Shown piece by piece: positions 16,614-34,751 of a stretch of 42,593 bases of DNA; positions within the stretch are counted from its first letter, which is position 1, and each line of letters opens with the position of its first letter. Both the position numbers and the translations under genes were made by a program. The DNA comes from Methylomonas sp. (lineage in GTDB: Bacteria > Pseudomonadota > Gammaproteobacteria > Methylococcales > Methylomonadaceae). The notes under the pieces were generated by a model. The model was given only the letters and a program-made list of their open reading frames with translations. It was not told the DNA's origin and did no database searches. Where the stretch lies: NCBI GenBank assembly GCA_026989395.1, contig JALSJK010000158.1, forward strand, positions 1 to 42,593. Reading direction: 5' to 3'.

Positions 16614-18449
16614 TTAATGATTATTGGTGGAAAAACTATCCGAGTCGTTAAAAATAGATAAATCGCGAGTAAAAATAGATTCATCCTTCATAATCATGGT
16701 TTGAGGTCGACCGAATAAATGCCCTTGCGCAAAATCAATTCCCAGCCTTTTGGCAATATTCAGTGATTCAAGTGACTCGATAAATTCTGCAATGGTTTGC
16801 AAACCCAGTTTTTTGGCAATATCGCACATTGCCTTGACCAAAACCTGGTCAGTTTCATCATTGCTAATATTACGAATAAATTGCCCGTCAATTTTCAGAT
16901 AGTCAATCGAGAATGATTTTAGATAGTTAAAAGAACAGAACCCTGTTCCAAAATCATCTAAGGCAAAACAACAACCTAACGATTTGATTTCCAGAATCAT
17001 TTTTTGCGCTTTTTCAAAATTTTCGATGATTGCAGTTTCTGTTATTTCAAAAGTAATCCGGTTTGGGCTTATCCACGTTGATTCCAGAAGTTGCTTGATT
17101 GCCGGTAATAATGACTCATCCTGGATCGCTTGACTCGATAGATTAATTGCTAATGATACATGGTTCATTTCCGGCGGTAAATCGTCAAGAAATCCAATCG
17201 CATGTTCCACAACCCATAAATCGATACCGTGAATCAGTCCTGTTCTCTCAGCTACGGAAATAAATTCATCCGGATGGATAACCCCATTTTGCCCGGCCAT
17301 CCTGAGCAAAACCTCATAATGAGAAATTTTTCCAGTGTGTAAATTGATGACAGGCTGATATTCAAGAAAGAATCGATCATCTTGCAGCGCCGTCCTTATT
17401 ATTGGCACCCATTGGATATCGTTATTTTTTTTCTGGATTTGCGGATCTCTTTCATTATATTCCCATACCTGATGTTGCCCTAAATCCTTGGCAAGGTGAC
17501 TGGCTTGTCTGGCTCGCGAAATTAATTCTTCAGGATGACTAATCATTTTATCTGATAAAACCATTGCCATTCCAGCGCTGACCGTCAGGTTATAGCAAGT
17601 TGACCCTGAAATAAAACGAAAATCAATCAGTGACGAAACGATTCTTTGGGCAACTTTTTTTGCTGCACTGGCAGAAATATCATCAAGATAAACACAATAT
17701 TCATCATAACCCAGACGTGCAAATAAATGATCTGATCGGACAGTCCTTCTGACAAGCTGTACCACCTCAACAATCAGCCGATCACCTTCTCCAAAGCCCT
17801 CCAGTTCATTAACCAGGCCAAATCGGGCCAAGTCAAGAAATAACAGCGCACCATTTCGGTTAATATTATTATTTCGTTGCAGAATGATTCTCAATTTGTA
17901 ATCCAGGCTACTCCTGGTTAATAGCCCGGTCAGCTCATCATGGGTAGATAAATAGGTGATTTTGGCATTGAGCAATTTGCGCTCTGCCAATTCATTAATC
18001 AAACGCTCTTCCTGTTTTAAACGAAAACACCGCTCATTTTTGATCGTTAAAAAAAGATTAACAAGCGTTGCCAGTTCTTCGTTTCGGAAGGTGTCGGGTA
18101 AATTACTCACTAAACAACCACTTTTCAAACCATGTTTTTGTTGCCAATCTGAAGTATCTTCACCAACAACAATGATTGGAATATCCTGATCCTGTCCATT
18201 ACAGGAAAAAATTTTGCATAGCTCATCAACCTGGCAGCCTGGAAGCGACTGATGAATAATCATAACTCCCATTTTATCTGGAGTTCTGGCCATTGAACGA
18301 AGTGTTTCAAAGACCTTTTTCCCATTTGCCGCTAAAACCAGATTTTCAAATCCTTTTGCACTCAGTATGTGTTGTATGTTTTCTCTGAAACTCGGTTCAC
18401 TTCCGGCGATGACTATACATTGATAAAAAAAAGCGAAATTGGAAACCAT
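16614..18449 (-). CDS. Receiver-like/GGDEF/EAL protein, probable c-di-GMP phosphodiesterase
   Basis: A 611-residue signalling protein. Residues 10-135 look like a receiver domain, but the phospho-acceptor aspartate position holds His66 (IIHQSLPG), so it is probably not phosphorylated. The GGDEF domain (165-335) is degenerate: the signature reads GYDEY at 247-251, so cyclase activity is unlikely. The EAL domain (345-600) keeps all catalytic positions: EVL 379-381, Asn436, Glu468, Asp498-Asp499, Lys519, Glu555 and Gln575. The likely function is c-di-GMP breakdown controlled by the two degenerate domains. It sits 9 nt upstream of the PBP1b gene and is divergent from an HDOD gene. Confidence 0.92.
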   Translation of the reverse strand: MVSNFAFFYQCIVIAGSEPSFRENIQHILSAKGFENLVLAANGKKVFETLRSMARTPDKMGVMIIHQSLPGCQVDELCKIFSCNGQDQDIPIIVVGEDTSDWQQKHGLKSGCLVSNLPDTFRNEELATLVNLFLTIKNERCFRLKQEERLINELAERKLLNAKITYLSTHDELTGLLTRSSLDYKLRIILQRNNNINRNGALLFLDLARFGLVNELEGFGEGDRLIVEVVQLVRRTVRSDHLFARLGYDEYCVYLDDISASAAKKVAQRIVSSLIDFRFISGSTCYNLTVSAGMAMVLSDKMISHPEELISRARQASHLAKDLGQHQVWEYNERDPQIQKKNNDIQWVPIIRTALQDDRFFLEYQPVINLHTGKISHYEVLLRMAGQNGVIHPDEFISVAERTGLIHGIDLWVVEHAIGFLDDLPPEMNHVSLAINLSSQAIQDESLLPAIKQLLESTWISPNRITFEITETAIIENFEKAQKMILEIKSLGCCFALDDFGTGFCSFNYLKSFSIDYLKIDGQFIRNISNDETDQVLVKAMCDIAKKLGLQTIAEFIESLESLNIAKRLGIDFAQGHLFGRPQTMIMKDESIFTRDLSIFNDSDSFSTNNH

Positions 18450-29430: not shown

Positions 29431-32400
29431 TCAAGGAAGCATTTCCAATGGCAATGCATAAACAGCGTCACCATCAATTGCCTCACCATCAAGGCTGACC
29501 CATAAATCGACATTATCATGGATCTTTTGGTAATAATTGATTTTATCTTGTAAGCGTTTTAAAAACTCACCCTGCCGTGTTGCAGACCAGGTTTGCCAAT
29601 CTTCTAATGAGACATTCATGATTTCCCCAGTATAGGGTAAATCCTCGATATACTCTCTCATAAAGCCCATTTCAGCTAAATTCCGTGGCTGTCCAGAGGT
29701 TGTACTGGTGGTTGTTCCTAGTTGCTTGGGATCTCGCATCAAAGTTGCCGCTAGACTTTTCAACTCATCAAGAAATTGTTTTGGGGACACTTGCCCTTGT
29801 CTCGCAGTTTCCAGCACTTTCTTTAAAACATCATGTAAATCAGATAATTGATCACGAGTTAACAACGCCCGAACTTCCAAAGCTGGCTTTTCCGGATGTT
29901 TAAAATCTTTATCCAACACCCAGGCACTGAATACATCAGGAATTTTCCCCTGCCCGGTTTTTTGAAGGTATTGTAATTCCAGAGCATGACCGAGTTTCGC
30001 TACTTTCCGTTGCAACTCAATTAGTCGTGGGTTGTGCTGTTCTGGTTCAAACGGAACTTTTTTCCCGCCGTTTATTGTTGACACTTGGTAAGTGATTTGT
30101 TTAGCCAACTGTTCTATTACACTGCCAAACTCTTCCAAACTGGTTGTTGGAACGCCATAATAAAAGCTACCAATACCTGGATAATGCGAAACTGTACGAT
30201 ACTGTCTTTCCGCCAGCTTGTGATCTGCCTGGGGATCAGGTGTTAAAATATGCATGACAAATATCGCCGCATTATTTTCTTGCGCCAATCGTTTCAACCG
30301 GCTTGCAGTTAAACCTGTTGAGGCCAGCGGGTCGCCAGCTTCTCTAGCCCCTGCATCAGTAATCAAAATAATATAGCGCGCCGCAAATGGCGACCAGTCG
30401 AGATCTTTCAATGCTTTTGAAATACCCGCATAACTATCTTCTATAAAGCCTCTGCTGGAAATTTCAGCGGCTTTTAAACCATTAACAGCCGCCATAAAGG
30501 TTTGTGGGTTTTCACCCTGCTTTAAACTGACATATTGCCGGGTTAAATATTCAATTCCTGGAACGACATCAGTATTATCCCTGAAAGCAATTAACCCAAA
30601 GTTAACCTGACCGATTAAATCTGCTTTTTCCAAAGTCCCATAAATTTTTGCTACCGCTTCCCGGGTTCGATCAATAAAAGGCTGCATCGAAAATGTAGAA
30701 TCTATGACGAAGGTTATACCAGCCTTGTAACTATTGCTTGGAACACTAATAGCCTCATGGTTGCTAATATTTGAATCGCCCACATTTTTTGCAATTTTCT
30801 TAATTGGTTTTTCTTTGCGCGCAACGCTGGAAACTTTTAATAAACGGGCTACTTCATTATTCAGATAAATTTGTTCATGATCCTGAATTGGCAACAGATA
30901 AAAATTCCTATTAAAATCTATGTGTTTGTCAGGTTGAATTGCAACGACAGGTGAATCTTTGCCAACTTTCCCTTGTGTTGCCTCTTTATGGAGTTTTTTA
31001 TAAGTTTCAATATCATAATTTTCTGCGAGTTTAATTAAAGATGATTTATCTTTAAACAACATCACCCTGTCTTGTTTTCCAGGGTCTTTAAAACTAAGCG
31101 TTAGACCTTGGTTCCAATCTTGTACACTATCCGTGGTTATCCATCCAGCCAAATTACCTTTGCGCCCAAGCCCAACCTGAACCCATTCGCGTCCAGAATC
31201 ATCTTTTAGTCTCAAATAAACATAATAAACAGAAAAAGCGGGGAGTGGGATAGCATCAAATGACGTAACCTTAGGTTGCTGATAAAGTATGGCCCCTGGC
31301 TGGGTAAGTACTTTTTGGAACAAACTTTTTTTGCCCGGCATCAACAAGGGCTTTAATGGTCCGGATGACTGACTTGGGTTACTTGCCTCCTCAAAGGAAA
31401 GCACAGCTTGATCTGACTGTTCAATTGCTTTTGCCTGGGGTAGCGATTCATTAGTATTAGCCATCAAATCTTTTTTGCTGGCTTTTTCCAGAATATTATC
31501 TGCTGGACTGAATAAAAACATAATAAACAGCAACAACATAATGACACCAAACCCCCAGAAATAACCGCTTGCTGTCACATAATCGGGTTTGGTTTCTTGC
31601 TCGGCTGTCTCTTCATTCTGGGCATTCTGCTTGTCGTATGTTAATCGATGGTAGAACTTTTCAATGGTGGTAGCAGAGCCTAATTCATCTATTCCAGCTT
31701 CATCGGTTTTTTTTAATGAAATCCTTTCCAAAACAGGAGCATCCTTAATGACTTTTTCTACAATCTTTTTGGTCACTACCGGTTTTTTTTCTCCTGCTAG
31801 TTTTTTTAATGACAAAGAGCAAAGTATATTAATTAATGCCGGAATACCTTTAGAATGACTAACTATTTTTTCTATGGCTTCAGGTTTAAACTGGCTTTCA
31901 ATTTTTTGTCCGATTGTTTGGAGCCGCTTATCGATGTAATACCTAACTTCTTGTTCAGATAATTTTTGTAATTGATACGAACTAATTTTTAACTCTGCAT
32001 CGGCAGGCAACTGTATTTTCAAAACTCGCGACTTTAAGTTTGATTCTCCAGTCAGAATAATCTGTAACGAACCACGGTCGGGTAATGGAGCAACTGAAAG
32101 CATCAACAGTTTTTTTAAAATTTCATCTGATAATTGATCTGCATCATCAATCACCAGCGCCACTCTTGTATGAATATTTCCTGGCTGATTCAAATAGCGA
32201 TCTAAAGCCAGTATGTTTTCGAAGAAATCCATATCCTCGGTATCAATCTCCAAAAAATGGCAAAGCTGATTTACAATTTCTGAAAAGCTTTTATGTATAA
32301 CATCATTATTCCCAAGCGAATAAAATTTCACTTTTTTATCCAGATTGTGCAGCAGGGATTTCAGAAAAAAGCTCTTCCCCATACCGGGTTCACCGCTAAT

Positions 32401-32541
32401 CAAAACAGCACCTTCACCGCAACTGACATCAGCAAACACTTGTTGACAAACAGAGTCCAAACTTGCAGAAATATAAAAATAATCAAGTTCCAGTTCCGGA
32501 CCGAAGGGATCTTGAATACGATCTGATTGTGATGAAGACAT
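29431..32541 (-). CDS. Membrane protein: ExeA-like AAA+ ATPase fused to PpkA-like SH3/vWA region
   Basis: A single intact 1036-residue frame. Residues 20-270 are an ExeA/MshM-type AAA+ ATPase with Walker A GEPGMGKS at 50-57 and Walker B VALVIDDADQ at 127-136. A charged linker leads to one membrane span at about 327-346. The segment 400-500 (LLMPGKKSLFQKVL, REWVQVG, LAGWITTDSVQDW) is SH3-like. Residues 608-830 form a von Willebrand A domain with MIDAS DSTFS at 614-618 and ITDAGARE at 727-734. The SH3-vWA part looks, from memory, like the periplasmic half of the type VI secretion kinase PpkA, but the kinase domain is absent and the AAA+ module takes its place. A helical tail of about 200 residues follows. 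N-in topology would put vWA in the periplasm. It is divergent from an ABC transporter. Confidence 0.85.
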   Translation of the reverse strand: MSSSQSDRIQDPFGPELELDYFYISASLDSVCQQVFADVSCGEGAVLISGEPGMGKSFFLKSLLHNLDKKVKFYSLGNNDVIHKSFSEIVNQLCHFLEIDTEDMDFFENILALDRYLNQPGNIHTRVALVIDDADQLSDEILKKLLMLSVAPLPDRGSLQIILTGESNLKSRVLKIQLPADAELKISSYQLQKLSEQEVRYYIDKRLQTIGQKIESQFKPEAIEKIVSHSKGIPALINILCSLSLKKLAGEKKPVVTKKIVEKVIKDAPVLERISLKKTDEAGIDELGSATTIEKFYHRLTYDKQNAQNEETAEQETKPDYVTASGYFWGFGVIMLLLFIMFLFSPADNILEKASKKDLMANTNESLPQAKAIEQSDQAVLSFEEASNPSQSSGPLKPLLMPGKKSLFQKVLTQPGAILYQQPKVTSFDAIPLPAFSVYYVYLRLKDDSGREWVQVGLGRKGNLAGWITTDSVQDWNQGLTLSFKDPGKQDRVMLFKDKSSLIKLAENYDIETYKKLHKEATQGKVGKDSPVVAIQPDKHIDFNRNFYLLPIQDHEQIYLNNEVARLLKVSSVARKEKPIKKIAKNVGDSNISNHEAISVPSNSYKAGITFVIDSTFSMQPFIDRTREAVAKIYGTLEKADLIGQVNFGLIAFRDNTDVVPGIEYLTRQYVSLKQGENPQTFMAAVNGLKAAEISSRGFIEDSYAGISKALKDLDWSPFAARYIILITDAGAREAGDPLASTGLTASRLKRLAQENNAAIFVMHILTPDPQADHKLAERQYRTVSHYPGIGSFYYGVPTTSLEEFGSVIEQLAKQITYQVSTINGGKKVPFEPEQHNPRLIELQRKVAKLGHALELQYLQKTGQGKIPDVFSAWVLDKDFKHPEKPALEVRALLTRDQLSDLHDVLKKVLETARQGQVSPKQFLDELKSLAATLMRDPKQLGTTTSTTSGQPRNLAEMGFMREYIEDLPYTGEIMNVSLEDWQTWSATRQGEFLKRLQDKINYYQKIHDNVDLWVSLDGEAIDGDAVYALPLEMLP

Positions 32542-32801
32542 TCTAAAAAATTACCTTATTACTAAAAAAATTGTAAAGCTTTAATCAATTGCACAAACAA
32601 AAAGTTTATAATAGAGTGGTTTTATGCGGACATATTTTCAACCAACTATATTGCAATCCATCCCATCCTTTTAAAATGGCCCGGGTATTATAACCTACTA
32701 AATTCGTTCATTTTTCAAAACCTGAAATCTTGGCTACTTTACCCTTTGTATTTGATCTTTTTGCTCAATAAACAACCAAACAACCTATTTCTTTTAACAG
32801 C

Positions 32802-33545
32802 ATGAAAACGCATTCCAACGGTCAACCATTGCTTCTTTACAAGCTCTTTAAAGTCAGCCGAAGCAGGGGGTTAGAAAACGCAAGGTTTAATATGGTCATC
32901 CACAATCTCCGCATTCATCAAGGCGATAAAATTGCATTTATTGGCGAAAGTGGCTGTGGCAAATCAACATTGCTTGATATGCTGGCATTTATTGCCCAAC
33001 CCAGTTACTCTGAAATTTTTAATTTTTATTTACAACACCAAAGCTCGATTAATATTGCTGTTGAATGGCAAAGAAAACACCTGGATCCATTAAGCCAGCT
33101 CAGGAAACGCTATATTGGATATGTAATGCAAACTGGTGGGTTGTTACCCTATCTTACAGTCAAGGAAAATATTTTATTGTCGCGAGAAATTCTCGATTTA
33201 CCGCTTGAAGACGAAATTGTTTTTCAATTAATCAATGATTTGAAGCTGGAAAGACATCTGAAAAAATCGCCTGCGGTTCTTTCGATTGGCGAGCGTCAAC
33301 GCGTTGCTATAGCCCGCGCACTTTCTCATAAACCCAAAATTGTCATTGCGGACGAACCAACTGCTTCGTTAGACCCCTACTCAGCCAAAGTTGTCATGGA
33401 GCTTTTTATTAATCTGGCAGAACAATTCAATATCACATTAATCATTGCCAGCCATGATTGGCAACCCCTTAAAAGTTTTGGCTTACACCGTTATTATCTC
33501 CATACCAGCTATTCTGAAAACCTAACTGAAACCAGCATTATTTAA
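32802..33545 (+). CDS. ABC transporter ATP-binding protein (LolD/MacB or TagT-like)
   Basis: A 247-residue nucleotide-binding subunit. Walker A GESGCGKST is at 48-56, the Q-loop glutamine at 110 (GYVMQTGG), the signature LSIGE at 160-164, Walker B IVIADEP at 180-186, and the switch histidine at 218 (IIASHD); all are intact, so it should hydrolyse ATP. The stretch between Walker A and the Q-loop is longer than in LolD. It precedes the FtsX-type permease by 9 nt. Placement beside a PpkA-like vWA gene suggests the TagT role of type VI threonine-phosphorylation clusters; this is inference from context. A generic MacB/LolD transporter is the alternative. Confidence 0.88.
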   Translation: MKTHSNGQPLLLYKLFKVSRSRGLENARFNMVIHNLRIHQGDKIAFIGESGCGKSTLLDMLAFIAQPSYSEIFNFYLQHQSSINIAVEWQRKHLDPLSQLRKRYIGYVMQTGGLLPYLTVKENILLSREILDLPLEDEIVFQLINDLKLERHLKKSPAVLSIGERQRVAIARALSHKPKIVIADEPTASLDPYSAKVVMELFINLAEQFNITLIIASHDWQPLKSFGLHRYYLHTSYSENLTETSII

Positions 33546-33554
33546 GCTTTCTGT

Positions 33555-34751
33555 ATGTTTAAAATCTTTAAACTTGCCGCTCGAGACTATTTTTACGAAT
33601 GGCAAATATCAATCTGTCATGTTTTAGCATTAGCATCAATCCTCGCTCCCTTGATGATCTTATTTGGCTTAAAATTTGGTATTATTGGCAAAATGGTAAG
33701 TCGACTTGTTGAAGAACCACTCAACCGGGAATTACGACCTGTTAGTAGTAAACATATTGAACCTGATTGGTTTAAAGAAATTAAAAGTCGTTCTGATGTA
33801 TCTTTTATCATACCTTTAAAGAGGAACCTGGCGGCCAATATTCAGTTGAAGAGCAAAACTGCTAACAAAATATTAAATGTCGAGCTGATCCCAACCGCGG
33901 AAAATGATCCTTTACTTCCTGAAATAAATCGTGCGCCCAAACAAATTGACGAAATCATTTTATCGAAAAGCGCAGCTAATAAATTATCAGTAAAAGCGGG
34001 CGATCGTATAGATGGCAGCATATCAAGAAAGTACCATAATAAAACCCAAAGAGTTCATATCCCACTACGGGTACTCGCTGTTGCTGAAAGTCAATCATTT
34101 AACCGGGATGGTGCTTTTTGTTCTCTAACCTTAGTTGAAGCTTTAGAAAATTTTCGTGATGGTCATGCTGTACCAGAACTTGGTTGGTCAGGAAAACCAA
34201 ATAAATTACAAAACTACTACACAGGATTCAGATTATTTGCTAAAACAATCAACGATGTTGAGCCTCTAAAACAATGGTTAAACGAACAGGGAATTGATGT
34301 TAGAACCCGAGCTCATGAAATTGCTGTCGTCAACAGACTGGATCAAAATTTGACTACAGTTTACTGGGTCGTGGCATTCACCAGCATCATTGGCTATATT
34401 CTATCCCTTGGCGCCAATCTTTGGGCCAATGTTGACCGCAAATACAAAGAACTCTGTATATTACGTTTGACTGGCTTTCGAACCAGCGAAATTATTTGCT
34501 TTCCAATTATTCAGGCAATGATTACCGCTGGTCTTGGCTGGTTTTTAGCCATTGTAATCTTCCAGTTTGTAGCATTCACAATGACCCACTTTATTTCTGA
34601 ATTTACAGATACTACTGACATTTGCCGTTTGTTACCAAGTCACTACTTTCTGGCATTGACCATCACCACTTTAGCAGCATTTTGTGCCGCATTATTAGCT
34701 GGATTTAGAACCATTAAAGGTGAACCAACTGATGGGCTTAGGGAATTGTAA
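33555..34751 (+). CDS. ABC transporter permease, FtsX/MacB type (TagS-like)
   Basis: A 398-residue permease with one N-terminal span (about 20-45), a large periplasmic segment (about 46-270), and three C-terminal spans (about 271-296, 315-345, 362-386), the arrangement of FtsX/MacB/LolC proteins. It ends in GEPTDGLREL, matching the usual C-terminal motif. Such permeases work as mechanotransmitters rather than as conventional pumps. It forms a pair with the ATPase gene just upstream. No MacA-type periplasmic adaptor or substrate lipoprotein gene is adjacent, which argues for a signalling or lipoprotein role over drug export. Confidence 0.88.
   Translation: MFKIFKLAARDYFYEWQISICHVLALASILAPLMILFGLKFGIIGKMVSRLVEEPLNRELRPVSSKHIEPDWFKEIKSRSDVSFIIPLKRNLAANIQLKSKTANKILNVELIPTAENDPLLPEINRAPKQIDEIILSKSAANKLSVKAGDRIDGSISRKYHNKTQRVHIPLRVLAVAESQSFNRDGAFCSLTLVEALENFRDGHAVPELGWSGKPNKLQNYYTGFRLFAKTINDVEPLKQWLNEQGIDVRTRAHEIAVVNRLDQNLTTVYWVVAFTSIIGYILSLGANLWANVDRKYKELCILRLTGFRTSEIICFPIIQAMITAGLGWFLAIVIFQFVAFTMTHFISEFTDTTDICRLLPSHYFLALTITTLAAFCAALLAGFRTIKGEPTDGLREL

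Follow-up and report, generated by a model that had tools for sequence, protein, structure and literature searches.

The locus examined here raises the question of what is achieved by a single protein in which an ExeA-like AAA+ ATPase is joined, through one membrane span, to SH3-like and vWA domains. The window, meaning the whole 42,593 nucleotide stretch of DNA that was analysed from Methylomonas sp., a methane-oxidising bacterium, encodes this fusion at 29431-32541 on the minus strand, in a frame of 1036 aa with an ATG start and no internal stop; the opposite (plus) strand of the same interval contains 63 stops. The preliminary description had reported one unbroken frame at these positions, as is found, and had not given the strand. 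The sample includes three fusion genomes, all from one genus: the source genome (G000), a MAG deposited as 'Methylomonas sp.' (G001) and G002. The orthologues in the latter two have an identical architecture, at 81% and 58% identity. Comparing the source with G001, the domains of the fusion give pN values of 0.07-0.11 and pS values of 0.60-0.76, a pN/pS of about 0.1-0.2, and hence both halves of the protein are under purifying selection. These orthologues and ratios place the open reading frame beyond chance. The source is a draft assembly of 182 contigs, in which a chimeric join or a pseudogene fusion might be suspected, yet the join recurs in each of the three genomes sampled from the genus, with selection acting on either side of it. 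Such an origin is therefore vanishingly improbable, and an assembly artefact was rejected on these grounds. The vWA half is present in 19 of 301 genomes of the order. Among the loci that were read, the complete fusion is known only from the three genomes of one genus; a few further family members with long open frames, such as those of G535 and G579, resemble the SrfBC branch at 39-40% identity. No viral relatives were found.

All features of the fusion lie on the minus strand. The ATPase domain, of the ExeA/AAA_22 type, occupies residues 1-290 (31672..32541), with Pfam matches to AAA_22 (E 6.5e-15) and AAA_16 (E 2.2e-8) and an NCBIfam match to the XrtA/PEP-CTERM ATPase family TIGR03015 (E 2.5e-31) that, at 109.1 bits, is below the curated cut-off of 324.5. 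Its Walker A (GEPGMGKS, residues 50-57, 32371-32394) and Walker B (VALVIDDADQ, residues 127-136, 32134-32163) motifs are where the preliminary description had put them. A sequence search of the PDB with the fusion returned matches to ATPase domains only, and the AlphaFold model of this part, for which the alignment was thin, is poor in confidence (pLDDT mostly under 60). Pfam gave no Pkinase match in the fusion, AAA_22 being found in the place of the kinase, and the peptidoglycan-binding domain PF01471 was likewise absent among its Pfam matches. The catalytic glutamate of the ExeA-type Walker B (DEAQNL) is replaced by aspartate in the fusion (DDADQ). The corresponding acidic pair is DE in ExeA-type paralogues, DD in the fusion, and DN and DD respectively in G038 and G045 (loci L040 and L041), two genomes with a related AAA domain. 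This implies that hydrolysis by the AAA domain of the fusion may be slow or absent, and a slow ATP-dependent oligomer switch would fit the substitution better than a motor. ATPase work of the kind envisaged in the preliminary description is no more than a possibility. The single transmembrane span that had been described is evident as a hydrophobic stretch at about residues 326-344 (31510..31566), shared by all three orthologues. Judging from hydropathy and homology, the AAA domain probably lies on the cytoplasmic side of the membrane.

Beyond the span, the AlphaFold model is sound for most of residues 400-1036, with pLDDT mostly 80-95. Residues 396-479 (31105..31356), which start with a conserved PLLMPGK, form a bacterial SH3-like domain according to the model, structural matching and alignments. 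Its best comparison with the bacterial SH3 domains of autolysins and NlpC/P60 proteins has a Z of 8.8 (rmsd 2.0 over 68 residues), while a Foldseek E of 0.03 limits the likeness to the level of the fold; at that level, the SH3-like segment of the preliminary description is borne out. There follows an alpha/beta connector (residues 480-600, 30742..31104), conserved across the family including PpkA, in which no known domain was found. The vWA domain (residues 603-822, 30076..30735) is supported by Pfam, by alignment and by an integrin I-domain fold over residues 604-855 (Z 18.5), and retains conserved MIDAS motifs at residues 614-619 (DSTFSM, 30685-30702) and 728-732 (TDAGA, 30346-30360), so that its earlier classification as a MIDAS-type vWA is upheld. 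The remaining, conserved helical/beta domain (residues 823-1036, 29434..30075), which contains LPYTGE and ends in MLP, is specific to the family. The structural matches returned cover neither it nor the connector.

This half of the protein had been likened to the periplasmic half of PpkA. A profile of the vWA half, built from 29 vWA relatives (alignment A1), matches proteins in Pseudomonadaceae at E values of about 1e-193 to 1e-200 across approximately 635 of its 640 positions. The open frames concerned are mostly 1017-1189 aa long, and an N-terminal kinase was found in three of the matches that were read. One of these loci, L210, has the gene order TssM, PpkA (Pkinase E 8.9e-48), TagT, TagS, TagR (with an FGE domain) and TagQ (a glycine-zipper lipoprotein). 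Against the PpkA of this locus, residues from about 391 to 1036 of the fusion align at 32.7% identity over 646 aa (E 3e-116). As this is a full-length match to a genuine PpkA, with the kinase, membrane span and vWA domain beside tagTSRQ and tssM, the suggested likeness is correct, and it extends from end to end of the periplasmic half rather than being confined to the vWA domain. Similarity to generic vWA proteins alone was discarded as an explanation, since such matches span only about 50-140 residues at E values of 1e-3 to 1e-6. The topology also appears to be kept relative to PpkA, as the preliminary description held, to the extent that homology is a guide; the C-terminal part of the Acidovorax PpkA is periplasmic by PhoA fusions (PMC12607579). 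Damage to the outer membrane elicits a response from TagQRST-PpkA in Pseudomonas, which can also be induced by dimerising PpkA artificially (PMC11881912, PMC10482370).

The proposed connection to the PpkA pathway stood as regards homology, but overlooked the strongest functional link, which is an ABC transporter encoded immediately beside the fusion (32802-34751). Its ATPase (32802..33545, plus strand, 247 aa) has an intact Walker A, LSIGE signature and ADEPT Walker B, is 43% identical to the TagT beside PpkA and matches Pfam ABC_tran (E 1.7e-26). Its permease (33555..34751, plus strand, 398 aa), of the FtsX/LolE type by homology, Pfam (FtsX, E 9.4e-8) and tree, is 35% identical to the TagS beside PpkA (E 4e-83). 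Between the fusion gene and tagT is a divergent intergenic region of 260 bp (32542..32801) that presumably bears the promoters of both, and in which scans for promoters and terminators gave matches no more often than expected by chance. In G002, TagT and TagS still adjoin the fusion while the remaining neighbours have changed, and the pair adjoins the vWA gene in most of the loci examined. The trees of TagS and vWA agree, the fusion and its nearest relatives forming one group in that of TagS (support 99), which indicates that transporter and vWA protein evolved together. An anti-phage role was considered and rejected: PADLOC gives no match for the fusion, and its TagT matches represent generic ATPase similarity. 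Elsewhere in the window, at 16614-18449, is a putative protein that apparently joins receiver-like, GGDEF and EAL domains.

Given this homology of both the periplasmic half and TagT/TagS to the pathway of the P. aeruginosa type, the fusion might be supposed to regulate a type VI secretion system (T6SS), as PpkA does. This is highly improbable, because the fusion has no kinase domain and the sheath protein TssB was not found in the three fusion genomes or in G045 and G675, which hold close relatives of the fusion's vWA half. The other neighbours of the fusion resemble ispG and thiC, with no T6SS genes near. A TagR gene is absent beside the fusion, the single FGE match in the genome being a 293-aa frame on another contig (C170), and no TagQ gene was seen among the neighbouring genes that were read. 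Nor is any gene for a cytoplasmic partner linked to the fusion. SrfB was not found in the source genome either, which is weak evidence as the search matched no control genome.

Most relatives of the vWA half are kinase-less secreted proteins whose genes share an operon with those for a Sel1-TM protein and a TagT/TagS-like transporter. The order Sel1-TM, vWA, TagT, TagS is common to many Gammaproteobacteria, and an extended set (SrfB, SrfC, Sel1-TM, vWA, TagT, TagS, FGE) occurs in Pseudomonas, Halomonas, Proteus, Xenorhabdus, Alcaligenes and others. On a Klebsiella pneumoniae plasmid (L260:659-14432), the annotated order is SrfA, SrfB, SrfC, hypothetical protein, vWA, ABC ATPase, ABC permease and SUMF1, and the vWA gene is found in 114 Klebsiella plasmid records. 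In host-associated Deltaproteobacteria, srfB, srfC, tagQ, ppkA, ligA and often tagRST make up one neighbourhood, mostly without T6SS machinery (PMC3608642). The surroundings of five Sel1-type loci (L108, L110, L123, L129 and L134) are mostly housekeeping genes and offer no functional clue; those of L123, named by eye, are lnt, leuS, lptE, holA, proA and nadD. Here (L123:373-13050), as in similar genomes, lptE and holA flank the four-gene module within a run of housekeeping genes. No description of either the fusion or the Sel1-vWA-TagT-TagS module was found in mainly open-access literature, an absence that is weak evidence; the closest account is that of the Deltaproteobacterial neighbourhood.

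Several loci depart from this plan in ways that bear on the origin of the fusion. In G038 and G045, a gene for an AAA-TM-Sel1 protein directly precedes a separate vWA gene. In Chromatium okenii (L164:4214-5887), it is a Ser/Thr kinase (E 6.6e-38) that is fused to Sel1-TM, directly before a separate vWA-TagT-TagS-FGE set; this arrangement is the mirror image of PpkA, and the vWA protein concerned falls beside PpkA in the vWA tree with moderate support (85). G675 has a standalone vWA gene with no Sel1 gene adjoining. Upstream of it on the same strand (L235:4939-5301) is a gene for a 120-aa protein that looks to be of the roadblock/MglB type. In a vWA protein of G060, another member of Methylococcales (L047:8032-10233), the N-terminus consists of a Cys-rich segment resembling a zinc ribbon, together with a membrane span, and is possibly another cytoplasmic output.

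The preliminary description envisaged that the kinase of PpkA had been swapped for an AAA+ ATPase. This is not borne out: the vWA tree places the fusion within the Sel1-type branch, which lacks a kinase (support 100), with G675 and G038/G045 as its nearest neighbours, and a replacement within PpkA was accordingly rejected. In the AAA tree, the fusion groups with the AAA domains of the AAA-Sel1 proteins of G038 and G045 (98/96), a grouping subject to a warning of long branches. The kinase-less relatives, the AAA on Sel1-TM in the sister lineage and the kinase on Sel1-TM in Chromatium okenii argue that the AAA domain joined a kinase-less module, and by sequence it now occupies a position parallel to that of the kinase in PpkA. 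No separate Sel1-TM partner was found in G000 or G001. The simplest reading would be that an ancestral Sel1-TM partner first acquired an AAA domain; Sel1 and the signal peptide of the vWA protein would later have been lost, which brought AAA-TM and vWA together in one protein. Four arrangements are thus represented (AAA-TM-Sel1 with vWA, kinase-TM-Sel1 with vWA, kinase-TM-vWA in PpkA, and AAA-TM-vWA in the fusion), which implies that kinase and AAA can each take either place.

The abundance of relatives consisting solely of secreted vWA, Sel1-TM and TagT/TagS implies that the module can work without a cytoplasmic output domain, and, as TagT and TagS are LolD/LolE-like, it could be supposed that they transport lipids or a lipoprotein as LolCDE or MacB do, with the vWA protein as a chaperone or adaptor and the AAA as an anchor or regulator only. 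That a kinase or an AAA was attached separately in different lineages, to the vWA protein or to Sel1, points instead to signalling across the membrane, and renders such a transport machine rather doubtful. An alternative that is unlikely, yet deserves somewhat more weight, is an assembly factor passing energy from inside to outside, in which the AAA multimerises, the SH3-like and vWA domains bind the wall, and an envelope machine is built or placed as ExeAB does for the secretin. ExeA, too, combines a cytoplasmic AAA ATPase with one span and a periplasmic domain, which binds peptidoglycan and drives multimerisation (PMC4098917); the AAA of the fusion is of the ExeA/TIGR03015 type, and its SH3-like domain resembles the cell-wall-binding domains of autolysins. 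Against this, the periplasmic half resembles that of PpkA and is linked to TagT/TagS, neither secretin nor pilus genes adjoin the fusion, and the Walker B glutamate is not kept.

The interpretation modestly favoured is that the fusion belongs with sensors of the PpkA/TagST type: it would cross the inner membrane once and have an AAA switch as the output on its cytoplasmic side. This interpretation starts from what was observed, namely the domain content, the full-length homology to PpkA, the linkage to TagT/TagS, the presence of AAA or kinase on either protein, the loss of the Sel1 partner and the lack of TssB and SrfB matches; the ligand, signalling direction, oligomerisation and target of the fusion are inferred, along with a topology taken from homology. 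In such a sensor, the SH3-like and vWA/MIDAS domains would bind a wall or outer-membrane partner in the periplasm. On disturbance of the envelope, TagT/TagS, of the FtsX/LolE mechanotransmission type and using cytoplasmic ATP, would expose or remove a ligand, or alter the vWA head. The change in the head would gather fusion subunits together, as for PpkA, whereupon ATP-dependent oligomerisation of the AAA domains might lead to a cytoplasmic partner being recruited or released.

The TagQRST-PpkA pathway is known as specific to the T6SS. Many bacteria, however, have kinase-less relatives alongside the same transporter, and a kinase or an AAA has been attached to the vWA or the Sel1 component; such variable attachment allows a shared sensing step to be separated from the output, and gives reason to study the module outside the T6SS, including in SrfABC operons, some of them on Klebsiella plasmids. 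There is about an even chance that PpkA represents a single branch within a wider family of sensors of envelope damage, sharing a periplasmic head (SH3-like/vWA, often with Sel1) and TagS/TagT and having a kinase, AAA, SrfB/SrfC or nothing as output, of which the fusion would be the AAA branch, with an ATP-dependent damage response.

Set against known systems, the fusion resembles PpkA, the kinase of the TagQRST-PpkA threonine phosphorylation pathway (H1-T6SS of Pseudomonas), in having an N-terminal cytoplasmic enzyme, one span, the same order of parts and a periplasmic half that aligns over its whole length, with a TagT/TagS-like ABC transporter adjacent in its locus too. It differs in having AAA+ where PpkA has a Ser/Thr kinase, in a genome without a TssB match and with TagQ/TagR unlinked to the fusion, and its vWA sits in another branch of the family. 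With ExeA/GspA and the TIGR03015 ATPases it shares an AAA_22-type cytoplasmic ATPase, one span and a periplasmic domain of a wall-binding fold; by contrast, the identity of their AAA domains to that of the fusion is about 33% or less, the periplasmic domain of ExeA/GspA is PF01471 rather than SH3-like/vWA, and its Walker B reads DEAQN rather than DDADQ. The SrfA-SrfB-SrfC-vWA-ABC-SUMF1 operons of Pseudomonas, Proteus, Xenorhabdus and Klebsiella plasmids encode a vWA of the same family and a TagT/TagS-like transporter, but there the vWA is separate and secreted, SrfB/SrfC and FGE/SUMF1 are present and there is no AAA. The Sel1-TM/vWA/TagT/TagS module of Chromatiales, Thiodiazotropha and relatives represents the lineage that holds the vWA and TagS of the fusion; its vWA is secreted and its Sel1-TM separate, whereas in the fusion genus, where Sel1 was not found, AAA-TM is joined to the vWA itself.
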